Positions 32,070 to 42,000 of a stretch of 64,000 nt of DNA are shown one piece after another. The stretch covers positions 620,001-684,000 of the forward strand of contig NZ_JADPKK010000013.1 in the NCBI RefSeq assembly GCF_023073915.1, in the 5' to 3' direction. Both the position numbers and the translations under genes were made by a program. A model generated the notes under the pieces. That model made no database searches and was not told where the DNA came from. It was given only the letters and a program-made list of their open reading frames with translations. Position 1 is the stretch's first letter; every line of letters starts with the position of its first letter. This DNA comes from Bradyrhizobium sp. 149 (GTDB lineage: Bacteria; Pseudomonadota; Alphaproteobacteria; Rhizobiales; Xanthobacteraceae).

Positions 32070-32774
32070 CTAGTTCACCAGCGCGCCGCCGTCGACATAC
32101 ACGATCGAGCCGGTGGCGAACCCATTCGCCATGAAGCTCAGGATCTGCTGGGCAATGTCCTCGGCCATGCCGACACGACCGACCGGGAGCGTGGCAGCCG
32201 TCCTGGCCAGCATCTCCTTGCGCGCCGCCTCCGGCATCGCGGCCCGGATCGGCGTGTCGATCACGCCTGGCGAGACCGCATTCACGCGCACCGGTGCAAG
32301 CTCCAGCGCGAGCGCACGCGACAGCGATTCCAGCGCGCCATTGGCCGCACTGATGATCGCCGAATTCGGCCGTGGCCTCACGCTGAGGAAACCGGTGACC
32401 AGCGTCAGCGAGCCGCCGGGCCGGATCTCGGCCTCGCGCGCGACGCGCCAGGCGCCCCAGAACTTGCCTTCCATGGTGGCGCGGACGTCATCCATCGCCA
32501 CCGTCTTGAATGGGCCGGTGCGAAGCTGCGCGGCGGTCAGCACGACGTGATCGATAGGGCCGGTGCGGCGGAACAGTTCGGCGACACTCTGGTCGCTGGT
32601 GACATCCGTGGGAATAGCCGCGACCTTGAGCCGCTCGGCGACGGAATCGAGTTTTGCAGCGCTGCGCGAGGCGATGATGACCTCGCCGCCTTGTATCTTG
32701 GCCAGTTCCGCCGTAGCGAGGCCGATGCCTGACGAGCCGCCGACCACGACGACCTTCTTGCCTGCGAGCGTCAT
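32070..32774 (-). CDS. SDR-family protein lacking the catalytic Tyr and Lys
   Basis: 234 aa. The cofactor loop VVVVGGSSGIGLATAEL and the C-terminal VRVNAVSPGVIDTPI and GSIVYVDGGAL mark it as a classical SDR. In the normal YxxxK position the sequence reads PNSAIISAANGALESL; aligning the following ALESL helix puts Ile141 at the Tyr site and Asn145 at the Lys site, and the active-site Ser is also replaced (VTGFLS). It therefore cannot work by the standard mechanism. It may bind NAD(P) for another purpose or belong to a divergent subfamily. Located between the TPP enzyme and cupin genes in one operon. Confidence 0.85.
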   Translation of the reverse strand: MTLAGKKVVVVGGSSGIGLATAELAKIQGGEVIIASRSAAKLDSVAERLKVAAIPTDVTSDQSVAELFRRTGPIDHVVLTAAQLRTGPFKTVAMDDVRATMEGKFWGAWRVAREAEIRPGGSLTLVTGFLSVRPRPNSAIISAANGALESLSRALALELAPVRVNAVSPGVIDTPIRAAMPEAARKEMLARTAATLPVGRVGMAEDIAQQILSFMANGFATGSIVYVDGGALVN

Positions 32775-32822: not shown

Positions 32823-34622
32823 TCAGCCTGGCTGAAATCGTGTGCCAATGCCGGCCTTGCTCTGTCCGAGGCCCGGCAATTCCCAGACACCGGCGCCGAC
32901 CGGATTGACGTCAGCAGCGATGTCGACGTCGATCAGATACGGCCTGTTCGCGGCGATGCCCTTGCGGATCGCCTCGCCAAGATCTCCCGCACGATCGACC
33001 CGCACGCCCTCGACGCCGCAAGAGCGCGCCATCGCCGCAAAGTCGGGATTGTAGCGTTCGCCGGTCTCCGGGTTCTTGAAGTCGGTCGCGAGTTCGCGGC
33101 CGCCGAGATAGCCGCGCTGAAGTCCGCGGATCGAGGCATAGGCGTAATTGTTCCAGACTACCCAGACCACGGGCAGATTGTACTCGACCGCCGTGCCCAG
33201 CACGTTGGCATGCATGAAGAACGCGCCGTCACCGCACACCGAAACGCAGGGCCGATCGGGCGCCGCGAATTTCGCGCCCATCACACCGGCGACGCCGAAG
33301 CCCATCGGGCCAAACCCCATCGAGCCGATCAGCGAGTCCGGCCGCTTCGGCTTGCAGAAGCCGAGCAGCCAATTGTGATGCACGCCGATGTCGGAGACGA
33401 GGATCGCGTCCTCAGGCAGCGCCCTGTCGATCTCGACCGCCGCACGCTGTGGGTTGATTGGCGTGGTGTCGTCGGAGAAGCCGGGCGCAACGAACTTGTC
33501 CCATTCCCTGCGATAGCCATCGATCTGCGCCAGCCATTTTTTGCGGACATCCGACTTCTTGAAGAGATTGTCGCGGCGATCGAGTTCCGCGTGAATCTGC
33601 CGCAGGAAAGTGCGGACGTCGGCCATCAGTCCGAGTGCGACAGGATAGTTGCGGCCGATCTCTTCGGGATCGATGTCGACATGGATCAGTTTTGTCGGCG
33701 GGATCGTGAAGGAATAGCCTGGGATCCAGGAGCTCGAGGTGCGGTCATCAAAACGAACGCCCAGCGCCAGCAGGACGTCGGCCTGGCGCGTCGCGTGATT
33801 GGCTTGATAGTGGCCGGCACGCGCGACGAGTCCGAGCGCGAGCGGATGATTGACGTCGAGCGCGCCGAGCCCGCTCGCGGATGCGGCGACCGGAATCTGA
33901 AGCCGCTCGGCGAGCTTGCGCAATTCGTCCGCAGCACCGCCATAGCGCACGCCCTGCCCGACCAGCATCACTGGCCGCTCGGCCGAGAGCAGCATGTCGA
34001 CCGCCTTCTCGACGCCATCAGGGTCGGCGCCGCAGCGGCTGGAAATATTGGCACTCCATTCGCTCGCCTTCGGCGCCTCCTCGGCCGCTGCTTCCATGAA
34101 GACGTCGAAAGGGACGTCGATCACCACCGGCCCCGGCCGTCCCGTGATCATCGTCTTCCAGGCCTGCCGCACTGCGAGCGGCACCATCTCGCCGCGCGTC
34201 GGCTGAAACACCTTCTTGCACATCGTGCGCACGGTGGACGGGAAGTCGGCCTGATAGTGCCGGTACATCTCCTGGAACGCGCCGCGGTTGAATTGGCTGG
34301 TCGGCACGTTGCCGGTGATCGCCATGAACGGCACCGAGTCCAGGAAGGCGTTGGCAAGCGAGATCGGTAAGTTCGCCGAGCCCGGCCCGCACGAGGTGAA
34401 GGTCGCCGTCGGTCGGCCCGAGACGCGGTAATAGACATCGGCCATGAAGCCGGCGACGCTCTCGTGATGCACGGAGATCGTCTTGATCTCGGAGGACCGC
34501 TCGTACAGCGCGTCGATGAACTGGATATTGCCGTGGCCGCACAGCCCGAACACCTGCGGCACCTTCTCCTGGATCAGATAATCGACAATGACCTGGGCGC
34601 CATTGAGCATGTTTTTCGACAT
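32823..34622 (-). CDS. Thiamine-pyrophosphate-dependent decarboxylase/ligase, acetolactate-synthase-like
   Basis: 599 aa, usual length for the family. The activating Glu is E54 (VHHESVAGFMADVYYR). The C-terminal TPP motif GDG-x~28-NN is visible near residue 463 (VCGDGAFFMHAN ... WVVWNNYAYASI), and a central FAD/ADP-like domain lies between. The protein is related to acetolactate synthase, benzoylformate decarboxylase and similar enzymes; the reaction is not fixed by the sequence. Start 34622 has a GGGAGA site; longer in-frame starts do not. Head of the operon with the SDR and cupin, divergent from an IclR regulator, so likely induced by an uptaken carboxylate. Confidence 0.88.
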   Translation of the reverse strand: MSKNMLNGAQVIVDYLIQEKVPQVFGLCGHGNIQFIDALYERSSEIKTISVHHESVAGFMADVYYRVSGRPTATFTSCGPGSANLPISLANAFLDSVPFMAITGNVPTSQFNRGAFQEMYRHYQADFPSTVRTMCKKVFQPTRGEMVPLAVRQAWKTMITGRPGPVVIDVPFDVFMEAAAEEAPKASEWSANISSRCGADPDGVEKAVDMLLSAERPVMLVGQGVRYGGAADELRKLAERLQIPVAASASGLGALDVNHPLALGLVARAGHYQANHATRQADVLLALGVRFDDRTSSSWIPGYSFTIPPTKLIHVDIDPEEIGRNYPVALGLMADVRTFLRQIHAELDRRDNLFKKSDVRKKWLAQIDGYRREWDKFVAPGFSDDTTPINPQRAAVEIDRALPEDAILVSDIGVHHNWLLGFCKPKRPDSLIGSMGFGPMGFGVAGVMGAKFAAPDRPCVSVCGDGAFFMHANVLGTAVEYNLPVVWVVWNNYAYASIRGLQRGYLGGRELATDFKNPETGERYNPDFAAMARSCGVEGVRVDRAGDLGEAIRKGIAANRPYLIDVDIAADVNPVGAGVWELPGLGQSKAGIGTRFQPG

Positions 34623-34708
34623 CAACCCGTCTCCCTGCGGCCCACGACTTCTTATGGACCGATGCCGAGAACATGGCGGTCGTCGCTGGGCCGCGGCAAG
34701 CCTATTTC

Positions 34709-34742
34709 CCATAATGCTGTACGTCAATTTATATTGTGATAG
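34709..34742. promoter_or_regulatory. AT-rich divergent promoter/operator region
   Basis: Between the divergent TPP-enzyme and IclR genes a short AT-rich patch stands out (ATAATGCTGT at 34711 and CAATTTATATTGTGAT at 34725-34740). CAATTTATATTG is an imperfect palindrome, a reasonable binding site for the neighbouring regulator and place for promoters in both directions. The exact -35/-10 boxes are not clear. Confidence 0.4.
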
Positions 34743-34847
34743 GCTGCCAATCTGAGGAATCGCGGGCTCGATCCCCAAGGTTGCGTGGTTGCGTGCTACT
34801 GTCGCACCAACGGAGTCACGACGGATTCACCAGAGAGGACCTCTTCC

Positions 34848-35759
34848 TTGAGATCGCGTACCAAGCCCACGACCGGCGAGAAACCTGCAAGCGCACGCAA
34901 ATCCGCGATCGCCAAACTGATCCCCGTGCCGCAAGCCGATGGCGACGACGACACCGACGACAAGCAGCGGAGCGGCGGCGTCCAGTCGCTCGGCCGCGCC
35001 TTCTCGATCCTCGAACAGGTCGCGCGCCATCGCGAGGGAATCGGACTTGCGGAGCTGAGCAAGCTGGTCGGCCTGCACAATTCGACGACCTTTCATCTCG
35101 CCAAGACGCTGGTCTCGCTCGGCTACCTCCGCCAGGAGAAAGACAGCAAGCGCTACCGCATCGGCCGCCCTTTGTTTGCGCTCGCAGCAAGCGCGCTGGA
35201 CGAGATCGAGATGGTCAATGTCGCGACGCCGGTGCTGGAGGAGCTGTCGCGCCAGACCGGCGAAAGCGGCCATTTTGCCGTGCGCATGGGCGATGCGGTG
35301 ATCGTCATCGCCCGCACCAGTGGCACCGGTGCGTTCCAGCTGACCGACCGTGTCGGTGTGGTGCGGCCCGCCCATTGCACCGCGCTCGGCAAGATCATCC
35401 TGGCGTCACTCCGCCCCGAGCAGCTGAAGCGGTTCATCGATCGCGTGGAGCTGAAACCCTCGACGCCAAAATCCATCAGCAACGCCGGCGCGCTGATGCG
35501 CGAGATTGCCGAGGTGCAGCGCACCGGCGTTGCCTTCGACGACGGCGAGTTCAATCCGGAAGTGCGCTGCGTCGCCGTGCCCGTGACCGATTTCACCGGG
35601 CAAGTGGTCGGTGCGCTCGGCATTTCCGGGCCGATCTGGCGGCTCTCGAACCAGGCGCTGCACGCCGGCGCACAGATCGTGCAGGCGGCCGCGGACCGCT
35701 TGTCGGCCGAGTTCGGCGCCAAACACCGGGCGCACAAGGCGCTCACGCAAAAAGCCTGA
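34848..35759 (+). CDS. IclR-family transcriptional regulator
   Basis: 303 aa from the TTG at 34848, which has AGAGGA 9 bases upstream; a GTG at 34785 would add 21 residues. The winged helix-turn-helix is at about 44-94 (GVQSLGRAFSILEQV ... LHNSTTFHLAKTLVSLGYL). The IclR effector domain follows (HCTALGKIILASLRPEQL, and EVRCVAVPVTDFTGQVVGALGISGP). It is divergent from the TPP-enzyme operon and followed by the ABC transporter genes, so it probably controls both in response to the transported compound. The N-terminus before the helix-turn-helix is unusually long and charged (DGDDDTDDKQRSGG). Confidence 0.92.
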   Translation: MRSRTKPTTGEKPASARKSAIAKLIPVPQADGDDDTDDKQRSGGVQSLGRAFSILEQVARHREGIGLAELSKLVGLHNSTTFHLAKTLVSLGYLRQEKDSKRYRIGRPLFALAASALDEIEMVNVATPVLEELSRQTGESGHFAVRMGDAVIVIARTSGTGAFQLTDRVGVVRPAHCTALGKIILASLRPEQLKRFIDRVELKPSTPKSISNAGALMREIAEVQRTGVAFDDGEFNPEVRCVAVPVTDFTGQVVGALGISGPIWRLSNQALHAGAQIVQAAADRLSAEFGAKHRAHKALTQKA

Positions 35760-35901: not shown

Positions 35902-37146
35902 ATGATCCGCTACCCGCGACGGACGTTGTTACGGGCGGGCGCAGCCTTCGTTGGCGCGTCGGCGCTTGGGTTTCCGGCGATCGTGAAGGGCCAGGCCGAG
36001 AAGATCCGGATCGGGCATCTGACGCCGCTCACGGGCTTTCTCGGCGTAATCGGCAGCTACGCGCAGCTCGGCGTGAAGCTCGCTGCCGAGGAGATCAACC
36101 AGTCCGGCGGCATTCTGGGCAAGCAGATCGACCTGCTCTCGGAAGACTCGATCAACCCCGCCACCGCGTCGACCAAGGCGCAGCGCATGCTGGAGCAGGA
36201 CGGCGCGATGGTGCTGCTCGGCGAGATCTCGTCGGCCTCCTCGCTCACCATCATGCAGGTCGCCGAGCGCAACAAGAAGGTGTTCTTCTCGACCGGCGCG
36301 CGCTCGGACGCGCTGCGCGGCAAGAACTGCAACAAATATTCCTTCCATTGCGACATCCCGAACACCGTGATGGTCAACGCGGTCGGCACCGCGCTGTCGC
36401 AGAAGGGCATGGTGAAGGGCAAGAAGTTCTTCACACTCACCGCCGACTACATCTTTGGTCACGATCTGCTGAAGGCGGCAAAGACCTTCTTCGGCGCGCA
36501 CGAAGCAAACCTGATCGGCGACGAGCTGATCCCGACCGACGCCACCGACTTCAGCCCGTATCTGCTCAAGGTGCGGCAAGCGAAACCCGACGTGGTCTGC
36601 TGCAACCTTGCCGGCAACCAGGTGACGAACCTCGTCAAGCAATATGCCGAGTTCGGCCTGCCCTACCCGCTGGTCGGCTTCAATCTCAACACCGGCGATG
36701 CCTGGGCCGCGGGCGCCGGCAATCTCACCGGCACATGGCCGACGGTCTGGTATCATACGCTGAACAATCCGACGTCGCACGCCTTCGTCGCGGCGTTCAG
36801 CAAGAAGTACGGCAAGACGCCGGAGAACCACGCCTGGATCGACTACATCACGCTGAAGCTGCTGGCGGAGGCGATCAACACAGCCAAGTCGACCGACAGT
36901 AATGAGCTGATCGCGTATTTCGAGAAGCAGGCCCAGTTCGACATCGGCAAGGCACGTAAGGCCTATTTCCGCTCCTGGGACCATCAGCTCGTGCAGGAGG
37001 CCTATCCGTTCACAGTCAAGCCGAAGGACCAGATGAAGGATCAGTGGGACATGCTGGTGCTGGGCGAGGCCGTGCCGGCGGCAGGCGATCCGCTGGAGAC
37101 GATCTATCCGACCAGGGAACAGAACCCCTGCGAGATGAAGGCCTGA
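35902..37146 (+). CDS. Branched-chain amino acid-type ABC substrate-binding protein (Tat signal)
   Basis: 414 aa. A Tat-like signal (PRRTLLRAGAAFVGASALGFP) leads to a Leu/Ile/Val-binding-protein fold of the type-I class: IRIGHLTPLTGFLGVIGSYAQLG, KLAAEEINQSGGILGKQI and the IFGHDLLKAAKTFFG segment. Such proteins bind hydrophobic amino acids, amides, urea or aromatic and short carboxylates. ATG 35902 has GGGAGGA upstream. First gene of a compact three-gene operon with a permease (20-base gap) and the fused permease-ATPase. The substrate is unknown; linkage to the TPP operon favours a carboxylate. Confidence 0.9.
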   Translation: MIRYPRRTLLRAGAAFVGASALGFPAIVKGQAEKIRIGHLTPLTGFLGVIGSYAQLGVKLAAEEINQSGGILGKQIDLLSEDSINPATASTKAQRMLEQDGAMVLLGEISSASSLTIMQVAERNKKVFFSTGARSDALRGKNCNKYSFHCDIPNTVMVNAVGTALSQKGMVKGKKFFTLTADYIFGHDLLKAAKTFFGAHEANLIGDELIPTDATDFSPYLLKVRQAKPDVVCCNLAGNQVTNLVKQYAEFGLPYPLVGFNLNTGDAWAAGAGNLTGTWPTVWYHTLNNPTSHAFVAAFSKKYGKTPENHAWIDYITLKLLAEAINTAKSTDSNELIAYFEKQAQFDIGKARKAYFRSWDHQLVQEAYPFTVKPKDQMKDQWDMLVLGEAVPAAGDPLETIYPTREQNPCEMKA

Positions 37147-37165: not shown

Positions 37166-38041
37166 ATGCAGTTCGAGTTCTTGCTGGAACAGGTGGTGAA
37201 TGGCCTCGTGCTCGGAGGCTATTACCTGCTGATCGCGCTCGGGCTGTCGCTGATCTTCTCGGTCGGCGGCATCGTCAATCTCGCGCATGGCGCCTTCTAT
37301 GCGCTCGGCGCCTATGTCTGCGTCGAGCTGACGAAACGCCTCGGCTTCGGCGCCGCCGTTGTGATCGCGCCTTTCGCGGTCGCCCTGCTCGGCATCCTGT
37401 TCGAGCGCTTCATCCTGCGGCGCTTCTACACGGCCGATCCGATCCTGAGCCTGCTCGTGACCTTCGGCCTGGCAATGGTCGCCGAGCAGGCGATCCGCAT
37501 GATCTGGGGCGCCGCACCCGTCTCGACCGAGATTCCGCAAGGCTTTCGAGGCTCGGTCATCGTCGGCGACTTCCTGTTCTCGCGCTATCGCCTGCTCATC
37601 CTTGCAGTCGTTGCGGCGATACTGCTCGGCATCTGGCTTCTGCTGCACAAGACCTCGTTCGGCCGCGTCGTGCGGGCCGGCATCCAGCGGCCGGACATGG
37701 TCGCGGCCCTCGGCATCCGGCTGCAGCCCTACATGACCGCGATCGTGATGCTCGGCGTCGGCATGGCCGCGCTCGGCGGCGCCTTCTTCGCGCCGATCAC
37801 GACCGTACATCCGGCGATGGGCGCGGAGATCATGACCATCGCCTTCGTCGTGGTCGTGATCGGCGGGCTCGGCAGCTTCTGGGGCGTCGTCATCGCAGCG
37901 CTGCTCGTCGGCGTGGTGCGCGGCATCGCCATCCACTTCGAACCTGCGGCCGGTGAAGCCTCGATCTACATCCTGATGTTCCTGGTGCTGCTGGTGCGCC
38001 CGCGCGGCCTGCTCGGCGAACGCATCGAGAAGTTCGAATGA
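37166..38041 (+). CDS. Branched-chain amino acid-type ABC permease, LivH class
   Basis: 291 aa membrane permease with about eight helices. Typical LivH signatures are NGLVLGGYYLLIALGLSLIFS at the N-terminus, the GGIVNLAHGAFYALGAY segment, LGVGMAALGGAFFAPI and GGLGSFWGVVIAALLVGVVRG near the C-terminus. Its stop overlaps the start of the next gene (ATGA). It partners the LivM-like part of the following fusion protein. Confidence 0.93.
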   Translation: MQFEFLLEQVVNGLVLGGYYLLIALGLSLIFSVGGIVNLAHGAFYALGAYVCVELTKRLGFGAAVVIAPFAVALLGILFERFILRRFYTADPILSLLVTFGLAMVAEQAIRMIWGAAPVSTEIPQGFRGSVIVGDFLFSRYRLLILAVVAAILLGIWLLLHKTSFGRVVRAGIQRPDMVAALGIRLQPYMTAIVMLGVGMAALGGAFFAPITTVHPAMGAEIMTIAFVVVVIGGLGSFWGVVIAALLVGVVRGIAIHFEPAAGEASIYILMFLVLLVRPRGLLGERIEKFE

Positions 38042-40578
38042 GAAGCGCCTCGCCCATCGGCAGGCTGAAACCGCTGCTGATCGCGGCTGCGGCAGTCGTC
38101 GCGCTGCCCTTCGTGCTGAAGGCGTTCGGCCTGTCCTTGAACACCGGCACCTGGATCGTCGGGCTTGCGATCGCGACGATGGGGCTGAACCTCTGCATCG
38201 GCTATACCGGCCTCGTCTCGTTCGGCCACAGCGCCTGGTTCGGCATCGGCGCCTACGCTGCCGGACTGATCCAGCTGCGCTTCTTCCCCGGCGAGATCTG
38301 GCTGCCGTTGATCGGATCGATGATCGTCGTCGCGATCGTCTCGAGCGTGGTCGGCATGCTGATCCTGCGCCGGCACGGCGTCTACTTTTCGCTACTGACA
38401 CTGGCGCTGGCTGCCCTGGTCTATACCACCGCCTTCCGCTGGACGAGCCTCACCGGCGGCGAGGACGGGCTCGGCGGCTTGAAGCGCGGCGACATCGGCG
38501 CGATCAGCCTCGACCACGCGCTCAACTACTACATGGTGGTCGCGGCGATCGGGCTCGTCGTGCTCTACGTGCTGATGCGCCTGGTACGCTCGCCATTCGG
38601 CCACGTGCTGGTCGCGATCCGCGAGAACCAGTTGCGCGCGAGCTTTCAGGGTTATCCGGTCGAGCGCTACAAGCTCGCAGTGTTCGTGATCTCGGCCGTG
38701 GTGACGGGCCTCGCCGGCGCGCTCATCGCGTTCCTGAACTATCTCGTCTCGGCCGAGGCCGTCTCGGTGCCGTTCGCCGGCGAGCTGCTGGCGATGGTCG
38801 TCATCGGCGGCATGCGCAGCCTGCTCGGCCCCGCGCTCGGAGCGCTGTTCTTCATCTTGTTTCGCGAGCTCTTCTCGATCTGGACCTCGGACTGGCTGTT
38901 CTGGTTCGGTCTCACCTTCGTAGCCTTCGTGATGTATTCGCCCGGCGGCCTCGTCGGCATCGGCGCGCTGATCATGCGGCGCTTCCGCCCCGCCGTGGAA
39001 GAGACGGCCGCGATGAGCCGGCGCAAGATCTATGACGGCCTGCCACTGCCCGACGTCCTGCGGCCGGACGCGTTAGAAGGTACCGTGCTCGAGGTCAGCA
39101 GCGTCTCCCGAAAATTCGGCGGCATCCGCGCGGTCGAGAATGCCAGCATCAAAGTCGCCGCCGGCGAGATCCACGCGCTGATCGGCCCGAACGGCGCCGG
39201 CAAGACGACGCTGTTCAATTTGGTCTCCGGCCTCTACGCGCCGGACCGCGGCACGATCCGCCTGAACGGGCGCGACATTGCCGGCGTGCCGGCCGATCAG
39301 ATCTGCCATCAGGGGCTGGCGCGCTCGTTCCAGATCACCAATCTGTTTCGCGGGCTGACGATCTACGAGAATTTGCGGCTGTCGCTGCAGGCGCGGCGCG
39401 CCATGCGCTTCAACATCTGGAACGACATCGACGCCTACCAGGACATTCACACCGAGGCGGCCGCATTGACAAAATTCCTCGGCCTCGAGGGCATCGAGGC
39501 GATCGCGGGCGGCGAGCTCTCCTATGGCGGGCAGCGGCTGGTCGATCTCGGCATCGCGCTCGGCTCCAAGCCGCAGGTGCTGCTGCTCGACGAGCCGCTC
39601 GCGGGACTGGCCGCCGCCGAGCGCGAACGGGTCTCCAACCTGGTCAAGAACATCGCGACCAACATTCCCGTGCTGATCGTCGAGCACGACATCGACCGCG
39701 TGCTCGGCTTCTCGCAAGTGGTCACCGTGATGAACCAGGGCGAGGTGTTGATGTCCGACCGCCCGCAAGCGGTGCGGGCCGATCTGCGAGTGCAGGAGAT
39801 CTATACCGGCAAGGGCATTCCCGCCGTCGAGCACCGGCGCACCGAGGAGACGGCTGGAGAGCGCGAGATCGTGCTGCGCCTCGATGGCGTCAACACGTTC
39901 TACGGCAAGAGCCACATCCTCAACGACGCCGCGCTCGAGGTGCGCGAGGGCGAGATCGTCGCGCTGCTCGGGCGCAACGGCGCGGGCAAGTCGACGCTGC
40001 TGAAAACCATCGCGGGGCTCGTGCCGGCGGCCTCCGGCACGATCAGCTATGGCGGCGCCGACATCGCGCGCCTTCCTGCACCCGAGATCGCGCGCCGCGG
40101 CCTCGGCTACGTACCGCAGGGCCGCGGGCTGTTCGCCGGCATGACAGTGCGCGAAAATCTCGCGCTCGGACGTCTGGCGCGCAAGACCGACGGCAGCGAC
40201 GGCGTGGTCTGGGACGAGGAGCAGATCCTCCACACTTTCCCGCGCCTGAAGGAGCGCATGAACATCGCGGCCGACTATCTCTCCGGTGGTGAGCAGCAGA
40301 TGGTGGCGGTCGCCCGCGCGATGTCCGGCAATGTGCGCCTGTTGCTGCTCGACGAGCCGTTCGAGGGCCTCGCGCCGGCGGTGACGCTCGAGCTGTTCAA
40401 GGTGTTCGATGCACTCCGCCGCCACGTATCGATCGTGATCGTCGAGCACAATCTCGACCTCGTGCTCGCGCTCGCCGACCGCGTCTTCGCGCTGGAGCGT
40501 GGCGCCGTGTTCCACCAGGGACCGGCGGCGCCACTGCTGAACGATCTCGGCTATCGCAAGCAGATCCTGTGGCTCTAG
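38038..40578 (+). CDS. Fused LivM-type permease + LivG-type ATPase + LivF-type ATPase
   Basis: 846 aa single reading frame. Residues 1 to about 325 are a LivM-class permease (ATMGLNLCIGYTGLVSFGHSAWFGIGAYAAGL, GMRSLLGPALGALFF). After a short linker comes a LivG-like ATPase, about 345-590: Walker A GPNGAGKTT near 382, signature SYGGQ near 493 and Walker B VLLLDEP near 513. A LivF-like ATPase occupies about 615-846: Walker A GRNGAGKST near 644, LSGGEQQ near 747 and LLLLDEP near 765. Normally these are three separate genes, two of them cytoplasmic. No stop or frameshift is seen at the joints, so one chain supplies a membrane domain and both ATPases. With LivH and the binding protein the importer is complete. 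Confidence 0.92.
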   Translation: MRSASPIGRLKPLLIAAAAVVALPFVLKAFGLSLNTGTWIVGLAIATMGLNLCIGYTGLVSFGHSAWFGIGAYAAGLIQLRFFPGEIWLPLIGSMIVVAIVSSVVGMLILRRHGVYFSLLTLALAALVYTTAFRWTSLTGGEDGLGGLKRGDIGAISLDHALNYYMVVAAIGLVVLYVLMRLVRSPFGHVLVAIRENQLRASFQGYPVERYKLAVFVISAVVTGLAGALIAFLNYLVSAEAVSVPFAGELLAMVVIGGMRSLLGPALGALFFILFRELFSIWTSDWLFWFGLTFVAFVMYSPGGLVGIGALIMRRFRPAVEETAAMSRRKIYDGLPLPDVLRPDALEGTVLEVSSVSRKFGGIRAVENASIKVAAGEIHALIGPNGAGKTTLFNLVSGLYAPDRGTIRLNGRDIAGVPADQICHQGLARSFQITNLFRGLTIYENLRLSLQARRAMRFNIWNDIDAYQDIHTEAAALTKFLGLEGIEAIAGGELSYGGQRLVDLGIALGSKPQVLLLDEPLAGLAAAERERVSNLVKNIATNIPVLIVEHDIDRVLGFSQVVTVMNQGEVLMSDRPQAVRADLRVQEIYTGKGIPAVEHRRTEETAGEREIVLRLDGVNTFYGKSHILNDAALEVREGEIVALLGRNGAGKSTLLKTIAGLVPAASGTISYGGADIARLPAPEIARRGLGYVPQGRGLFAGMTVRENLALGRLARKTDGSDGVVWDEEQILHTFPRLKERMNIAADYLSGGEQQMVAVARAMSGNVRLLLLDEPFEGLAPAVTLELFKVFDALRRHVSIVIVEHNLDLVLALADRVFALERGAVFHQGPAAPLLNDLGYRKQILWL

Positions 40579-40584
40579 CGCTCC

Positions 40585-41559
40585 CTACTCCGCCTTGATG
40601 TTCGCCGCCGCCACCACTTCGGCGAGCTCCGTGGTCTCCTTCGCGATCTTGGCGGCATACTCAACCGGGCTGAGCACGCTCACGACGCCCTGCGTCTCCA
40701 GCCGCTCTTTCAACATCGGATCCGTCGCCGCCGCGATGATCTCGCGATGCAGCGCCTCGAGGATCGGCGCTGGCGTTGCCTTCGGCATGAAGAATCCGAC
40801 CCAGAACGAGAGGTCGAAGCCGGGATAGCCGGCCTCCGCGACGGTCGGCACGTCAGGCAGCGACGGCAGCCGCTCGGCAGAGGACACCGCGAGCGCGCGC
40901 AGCTTGCCGGCCTTCACCAGCGGCACCGCGGATAAGGGATCGAACACCGCCAGGACCTCCTGCGCGAGGATGCCGACCTCGGACGCAGCACCACCGCGAT
41001 AGGGCACGTGGATCATCTTGACGCCGGCCTTCTGGCTGAGCAGCTCCATGGCGAGATGAGCGAGGTTGCCGTTGCCGCCGGAGCCGTAGGCTAGCTCGCC
41101 CGGCTTGGCCTTGGCGGCGGCTACGAGATCGGCCACGGTCTTGATGTCGGCCGTCTTGGGATTCTCCGGATTGACCACGAGCACGAGCGGCGCCGACACG
41201 ATGGTGGTGAGCGGTGCGAGGTCCTTTTCCGGATCGTAGCGGATGTCCTTGAAGAGCGTCTTGTTGAGCGTGATGGTGGACGAGTTGCAGGCCAGCATCG
41301 TGTAGCCGTCGGCTTCCGCATGCGCCACGCCTTCGGCGGCGATCATGCCGTTGGCGCCGGCGCGGTTCTCGACCACGAAGGCTTGGCCGAGCTTGTTGCC
41401 CAGCCGATCGGCGATGATCCGCGCGACGACATCGACCGGACCGCCCGCGCTGAAGCCGACCATGATCTTGACCGGCCGCACCGGATATTTTTGTGCGAGG
41501 GCCTCGGTCGTCACGCACAATCCGGCGACGATCGCCAGCAGGCGAAGCGTTCGTTGCAT
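40585..41559 (-). CDS. Tripartite tricarboxylate transporter (Bug-type) substrate-binding protein
   Basis: 324 aa. A Sec signal (LRLLAIVAGLCVTTEALA, about 5-22) precedes the Bug fold: YPVRPVKIMVGFSAGGPVDVVARIIADRL, VVENRAGANGMIAAEGVA and the HVPYRGGAASEVGILAQEV segment are all characteristic. Such periplasmic proteins bind carboxylates such as citrate or aromatic acids, and many are orphans without a cognate transporter, as here: no TctA/TctB gene is nearby. Start 41559 has GGGGAGA upstream. Convergent with the fusion gene (6-base gap). It may serve a sensor or a transporter elsewhere. Confidence 0.9.
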   Translation of the reverse strand: MQRTLRLLAIVAGLCVTTEALAQKYPVRPVKIMVGFSAGGPVDVVARIIADRLGNKLGQAFVVENRAGANGMIAAEGVAHAEADGYTMLACNSSTITLNKTLFKDIRYDPEKDLAPLTTIVSAPLVLVVNPENPKTADIKTVADLVAAAKAKPGELAYGSGGNGNLAHLAMELLSQKAGVKMIHVPYRGGAASEVGILAQEVLAVFDPLSAVPLVKAGKLRALAVSSAERLPSLPDVPTVAEAGYPGFDLSFWVGFFMPKATPAPILEALHREIIAAATDPMLKERLETQGVVSVLSPVEYAAKIAKETTELAEVVAAANIKAE

Positions 41560-42000
41560 TCGTTCTCTCCCCGGACGCTCGCGGCCGCTTTGGCATGACG
41601 CGGCGCATTCGCCGATCATGATGAGCGGGCGCGCCGGATTTCGCAATCGCGTTTGCAGGCCGGCATTCCGTCACGCGGCAGGTCAGAGCAAGTTCGAAAC
41701 AAAACGCGCGAAAACAACCCCATGCACAGTAGCCGGTCTCTGTCAGAACAAGGGCTTACACGGACAAGGACTTGCACGACCGGGAATCGCGCGCTTCGCA
41801 ATGTCGTTTGACTCGTCGGGCAAAACACCGGCAGAATGCCATCATCGCAACAATCGCCAGCCTCGACGCCGCCCGACCATTGGGCGCCGCGCGGCGATTG
41901 CGCGTAAGCCCTTCATCGACATCTCGAAAATCGCACAGGCGCGCAAGCCAAGCGATCGATTTCGCGCGCGATGAGCCCGTGCCAGCAAAGGACCCAGCAC
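41560..42000. other. 441-base intergenic stretch with no supported gene
   Basis: It separates the Bug gene and the next plus-strand operon. Overlapping short reading frames on both strands are arginine-rich and unlike proteins. At 41800-41830 the stretch GTCGTTTGACTCGTCGGG followed by CAAAACACC resembles decayed intergenic repeats I associate with Bradyrhizobium genomes, but I cannot confirm it. No tRNA, terminator or strong promoter is clear. Confidence 0.5.

Follow-up and report, generated by a model that had tools for sequence, protein, structure and literature searches.

The locus described here raises the question of whether three subunits of an ATP-binding cassette (ABC) importer, a LivM-like permease (M), a LivG-like ATPase (G) and a LivF-like ATPase (F), are truly joined in one polypeptide, and how far such a chain departs from known importers. 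The gene lies in a window of 64,000 nucleotides (nt; the whole stretch of DNA analysed, contig NZ_JADPKK010000013.1, positions 620,001 to 684,000) of Bradyrhizobium sp. 149. The fusion is real, sound and ordinary in kind, and the gene very probably encodes one fused component of an ABC importer of the HAAT type (Liv/Urt class) that is ordinary in other respects and has its binding protein and LivH as separate proteins. The main correction concerns the first-pass annotation of the window, which had called this subunit architecture unusual: the M-G-F order is recurrent.

The frame encodes 846 amino acids, with a calculated mass of 91,241 Da, and has no internal stop codons (coordinates of all features in Table 1). 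Pfam scanning placed one PF02653 domain and two PF00005 stretches on it, and each domain scanned alone was still Pfam-positive (M alone with 1.8e-39). Both ATPase domains contain a Q-loop together with Walker A (GPNGAGKT, residues 383-390, in G; GRNGAGKS, 645-652, in F), signature (LSYGGQ, 494-499; LSGGEQ, 748-753) and Walker B motifs (VLLLDEP, 514-520; LLLLDEP, 768-774) and a switch histidine (within IVEHD, 547-551, and IVEHN, 801-805). The catalytic residues of both domains are invariant or near-invariant among 32 aligned orthologs. The single permease-ATPase-ATPase frame given in the first-pass annotation is borne out by the open frame, the Pfam domains and the orthologs, and the Walker A, Walker B and signature motifs listed there were all located. 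Because M, G and F lie on one chain, their ratio would be 1:1:1 by construction, and the fixed permease-to-ATPase stoichiometry that had been deduced from the fusion stands as such a deduction.

A frame of this length might also be a sequencing or assembly artefact in which a lost stop codon or a frameshift joins three genes. Artefacts of this kind do exist: at a locus in another genome of the same genus (L110, 4215-1462, minus strand), an apparent M-G-F fusion seems to slip its frame inside G, and the usual ATGA boundary of a separate F is still present downstream of the slip. The gene studied here was compared with its orthologs by scanning a single genome from each species, which gave 157 stretches with a relative at E ≤1e-3; the best 80 of these 157 were examined. 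The best matches were of full length with E = 0, and in 80 of the 80 loci the matches to M, G and F lay in a single frame. Identity to the fused protein, by best segment, was 67-92%, and among the source assemblies are those of Bradyrhizobium, Hyphomicrobium, Devosia, Roseibium, Propylenella and betaproteobacteria. Three loci are truncated at a contig end (L050, L055, L066), and in L045 the start codon of the open reading frame (ORF) lies as late as residue 103 of M; no break at the M-G or the G-F joint was found in the 80 kept loci. In the alignment, both linkers stay in frame and vary in a protein-like manner. Since orthologs in many separately sequenced genomes keep the same frame, an artefact is ruled out for practical purposes, its chance being negligible, and, judged from these alignments, the join is real rather than an assembly slip. 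Loci such as L110 would be scored as fusions by automated searches, and in L102 a TGA separates G from F despite a strong E-value match; an E-value alone is no proof of fusion.

Regarding family assignment, the parts of a HAAT-type importer were all found at the locus: PF02653 permeases of both kinds (M and H), two ABC ATPase domains of the LivG/UrtD and LivF/UrtE types with all catalytic motifs, and a Peripla_BP_6 binding protein in the operon. M, G and F share one frame and a separate LivH lies upstream, as is characteristic of an M-G-F fused subunit. Scanned alone, G scored 207 with UrtD (cut-off 304) and 188 with LivG (cut-off 362), F scored 210 with UrtE (cut-off 286) and 174 with LivF (cut-off 441), and the NCBIfam model nearest to M was UrtC (147, cut-off 296), the LivM model not being listed for M at 1e-30. 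The best-scoring models for the three domains are thus those of UrtABCDE, all below cut-off, and neither ATPase domain reaches the equivalog cut-off of LivG or LivF. The LivH-type protein reached 70 of the LivH cut-off of 379. A subunit of a urea transporter (UrtCDE type) could be read from the whole protein, which passes the cut-offs of UrtD (327 vs 304) and UrtE (318 vs 286), but it does so because the scores of its two ATPase domains add up. This identity was rejected once the domains were scanned apart and is very improbable: every domain alone is below its Urt cut-off, as are the operon proteins with UrtB (177 vs 250) and UrtA (122 vs 493), and no urease part was present among the six window proteins scanned, no wider search for urease genes having been made. 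All three domains fall short of the curated Liv and Urt cut-offs, and on these scores LivM, LivG and LivF are labels of position, not of identity. Of the names LivM, LivG and LivF given to the domains at first, the domain types hold and the specific Liv identities are not supported. The protein would be a generic HAAT-type paralog, for which 'HAAT-type fused subunit' is the most fitting name.

Single-chain fusions of permease and ATPase commonly homodimerise in exporters, according to parts of the Brucella ABC inventory (PMC2821768), and the fused chain might likewise act in the manner of a half-transporter, as a homodimer with two M and four ATPase domains and no LivH. A separate LivH-type gene, however, lies directly upstream of the fused gene in 73 of the 73 ortholog loci with enough flank, which agrees with the initial statement that LivH stays separate; it overlaps the fused gene by 4 nt in 42 of the 73, with start positions estimated from alignments. 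A LivH-type ORF of its own was also present in 33 of 34 further loci (L110 among the 34), the single miss being at a contig edge. The homodimer is accordingly thought highly unlikely, and a pairing of the fused chain with LivH is preferred. A binding-protein relative is likewise found upstream in 70 of 70 ortholog loci with flank. LivH, LivM and ATPase genes appear as separate entries in parts of the same Brucella inventory (PMC2821768).

Met326 (39013-39015) and the two alanines preceding it are conserved in the nearer fused groups, although the M-G linker around them is rather variable. An internal start at Met326 (window position 39013) would additionally yield a free G-F ATPase protein, in which case the stoichiometry would not be fixed. 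All 32 aligned orthologs keep the methionine, and in many orthologs its ATG is preceded, at a distance of 9 nt, by a GGAAGAA-like purine stretch. Nevertheless, the preceding alanines are kept as amino acids (residue 324 in at least 90% and residue 325 in all) with variable third codon positions, loci such as L048, L074 and L093 keep Met326 without the purine stretch, and the other fused groups are without the AAM motif. A motif at the protein level explains the conservation of Met326 better than an internal start, which is disfavoured and considered unlikely.

An AlphaFold2 model of the monomer without LivH, built on the 32-sequence alignment, had a mean predicted local distance difference test (pLDDT) of 81 and a predicted template modelling score (pTM) of 0.72. 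Values below 50 were confined to residues 1-5, 317-324, 597-607 and 623-625, of which 317-324 and 597-607 belong to the linkers. The top Foldseek match was 8s7v_K (template modelling score by target 0.71, root-mean-square deviation (rmsd) 5.4 over 548 columns), followed by OppD and DppD of Mycobacterium tuberculosis, with multidrug exporters such as ABCB1 ranking after these. ATP-bound DppD (8wdb_D, 0.68) outscored apo DppD (8wd9_D, 0.60), and free EttA (4fin_B) was far lower (0.34, rmsd 26.5), as expected if G and F are modelled as a closed pair; the matches fit such a pair within the predicted chain. The matched chains presumably each hold two ATPase domains, which fits their lengths. G matched the solved structure of the LivG-type ATPase 1g6h with a Z of 27.7 and an rmsd of 3.0 over 240 residues. 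A second structure search listed ATPase-type rows only, spanning residues 343-813, the fold of M being outside its reach.

In the importer proposed here, the binding protein would hand the solute to a membrane pair of LivH and M, beneath which G and F of the same chain probably form the ATP sandwich dimer in cis, as in the model; one importer would consist of one fused chain and one LivH. The solute may be an organic acid (a 2-oxo, hydroxy or aromatic acid), a part of the proposal held with less confidence. Several points weigh against this picture. The in-cis pairing comes from one predicted monomer without LivH, and tethering alone can make two domains look dimeric; the gap in score between ATP-bound and apo DppD is small; no PDB sequence match was found for the M domain. 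The solute is judged from the gene neighbourhood only, and the neighbours change between relatives, a relative of the IclR-family regulator being missing from 14 of 68 loci and a copy of the TctC-type neighbour with at least 60% identity occurring in only 14 of the 61 ortholog loci that have flank. For the LivH-type permease, too, no PDB sequence match was found.

Among known systems, LivHMGF/Bra of the HAAT family has the same parts and, in its model gene order (K-H-M-G-F), the same arrangement as the locus, whereas its M, G and F are separate proteins. The subunits of UrtABCDE are separate proteins as well. OppD and DppD of M. tuberculosis carry both ATPase domains on one chain, whereas their permeases, members of the peptide-importer family, are chains of their own. 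Partly fused HAAT systems contain the same parts with only two domains joined: M-G with a separate F in L125 (in the Bradyrhizobium sp. 149 genome itself), L153 and L154, M with a joined G-F in L141 (same genome), and probably H-M in L152 of Haladaptatus. M-G-F proteins already named by NCBI show no difference in architecture; WP_202684609.1 of Skermanella mucosa (59.1% identical) and WP_027513123.1 of Rhizobium sullae (39.5% identical) are M-G-F proteins with LivH and a binding protein encoded upstream.

The description of the architecture as unusual could not be upheld, relatives being widespread in Pseudomonadota under a product name already used by NCBI. Matches at E ≤1e-150 were found in 24 of 60 close relatives (own genome included), and an ortholog of at least 78% identity in 18 of 35 other genomes of the same genus (one of the 18 partial); some genomes of the genus carry one or two extra paralogs of fused length (38-57% identity). 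At 1e-120, 14 of 385 genomes in a class sample and 23 of 398 in a phylum sample gave a match (own genome included in both counts; the two samples share some genomes). The fused form is widespread in Pseudomonadota, yet in a minority of genomes. The product name in use, 'branched-chain amino acid ABC transporter ATP-binding protein/permease', occurs on plasmids of Skermanella, Rhizobium, Microvirga, Salipiger and others, some records being named more vaguely, and it also covers two-domain M-G fusions with a separate F. In a plasmid collection, 64 records matched at 1e-100; among the 40 listed, 21 were single-piece and 19 three-piece matches, the latter being the separate-gene state. Plasmid matches in archaea, Thermomicrobium and Fusobacterium came in two or three pieces (among the matches listed, 40 of 64 and 45 of 105 records). 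A literature search, with subscription papers outside its range, found no open-access paper describing an M-G-F fusion.

Within the genome of Bradyrhizobium sp. 149, 171 matches to the fused protein were obtained at E ≤0.001, many of them other ABC ATPases. Twenty regions were taken; all 20 contain M, G and F domains in several degrees of fusion, with 18 fully separate sets plus L125 and L141. The genome shows a strong expansion of HAAT-type importers. L141 (contig C11, 509200-512100) has a G-F fusion of two ATPases in a 497-aa frame beside a separate M-type permease, and could instead be a sugar-type double ATPase. On a plasmid of Haladaptatus salinisoli (L152), a 657-aa permease gene stands in place of LivH and LivM, which suggests, from length and position, an H-M joint in an archaeon. 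A 1431-aa ORF (L147) was rejected as a four-domain H-M-G-F fusion; LivH is encoded there by its own ORF in a different frame, and the surplus length is just open frame.

Regarding the origin of the fusion, an early tree comprised 73 of the 146 complete systems then collected. A quick tree and an approximately unbiased (AU) test were based on the concatenated M, G and F domains of 59 hand-picked systems (750 columns), leaving aside L141 and L152 (aberrant) and most near-copies. For a careful tree of 53 rows, six systems (L110, L130, L132, L138, L139, L140) were dropped for long branches or a doubtful frame. In the 59-row tree the fused proteins fall in two separate places, and forcing the 25 fused rows together, with L110 left free, cost 155.7 log units (AU p = 1.7e-6, quick tree). 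A single fused group appeared in 0 of 200 bootstrap trees of the 53-row analysis, in which clade A (the protein described here, its 57% paralogs and the 38-40% Rhizobium/Paraburkholderia type) had a support of 100/98 and clade B one of 100/100; clade B groups with three M-G + F systems at 100/97. For the domains compared, the M-G-F proteins thus form two or more separate groups in the trees. It is fairly probable that the fusion arose at least twice independently in Pseudomonadota, always in the order M-G-F and with LivH free wherever visible; one case lies among M-G + F systems and may thus represent stepwise growth. The trees infer neither root nor direction, and the M-G + F sisters could in principle have arisen by fission of an old fusion. 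The fusion described here probably came about by loss of short gene overlaps in an M-G-F operon. Linkers differ between clades A and B and also among the subgroups of clade A ('AAM' motif vs 'WTLxRxxIPxRP'), so that there may have been a third origin within clade A. L110 had been considered as a possible third origin and was set aside after its DNA was read, given the kept ATGA boundary and the slip inside G.

The probable repeated origin of the M-G-F fusion is the modest new point of this analysis. If true, it would suggest that attachment of both ATPase domains to the M side has been selected for, with an ATP dimer in cis, a fixed orientation and an exchangeable LivH. It would also make the benefit of fusion to an ABC importer testable through sister systems, by comparing fused with less fused ones, for example clade B with L154 (M-G + F). 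A natural M-G-F chain is, moreover, a tool: with LivH and the fusion as the only membrane proteins of a heteromeric importer, purification would be simpler, and the chain would fix the pairing of ATPase and permease half, permitting asymmetric single-site mutants.

Table 1. Features of the fused importer gene and its operon neighbourhood (positions in the window)
Feature	Position	Strand	Basis
Fused importer gene, permease (M) - ATPase (G) - ATPase (F), 846 aa	38038..40578	+	Open frame from ATG to stop; Pfam domains; orthologs
M permease domain	38038..39009	+	PF02653, residues 36-284; helical in model
M-G linker, about residues 313-348	38974..39081	+	Ortholog alignment; low pLDDT at 317-324
G, first ATPase domain, LivG/UrtD-like	39070..39819	+	Walker A, Q-loop, LSYGGQ signature, Walker B and switch His intact
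G-F linker, about residues 592-610	39811..39867	+	Mostly variable in alignment; pLDDT <50 at 597-607
F, second ATPase domain, LivF/UrtE-like	39853..40575	+	All motifs intact
LivH-type separate permease, 291 aa	37166..38041	+	PF02653, 3e-32; overlaps fused gene by 4 nt (ATGA)
Substrate-binding protein, 414 aa from ATG at 35902	35902..37146	+	PF13458 Peripla_BP_6, 3.9e-73 (scans used 35905-37146, one residue short)
IclR-family regulator	34785..35759	+	Domain scan
Thiamine pyrophosphate (TPP)-dependent enzyme, acetolactate synthase/2-oxo-acid decarboxylase superfamily	32823..34778	-	Divergent; true start probably inside ORF

Among the neighbours, relatives with at least 40% identity were found for the TPP-dependent enzyme in 60 of 68 loci and for the IclR-family regulator in 54 of 68, both counts referring to presence in the locus and not to strict adjacency. 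Clustering of neighbours in 90 loci, with one member of each cluster scanned, gave a short-chain dehydrogenase/reductase (SDR) in 42, an aldehyde dehydrogenase in 15, a LysR regulator in 10, a second SDR in 6 and a flavin adenine dinucleotide (FAD)-dependent dehydrogenase in 5; the FAD protein scanned, that of L058, scores above the TcuA cut-off. Because of these catabolic neighbours (TPP enzyme, aldehyde dehydrogenase, SDR and FAD protein), the neighbourhood suggests, with less confidence than applies to the other conclusions, an organic acid as substrate and not a branched-chain amino acid.

Beyond the TPP-dependent enzyme lies a putative SDR oxidoreductase ORF (32070-32774, minus strand); the SDR cluster takes such a place in its 42 loci, and one member passes the NCBIfam SDR cut-off. 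The gene for a TctC-type (PF03401) solute-binding protein (40585-41646, minus strand) converges on the fused gene, with 6 nt between their ends.

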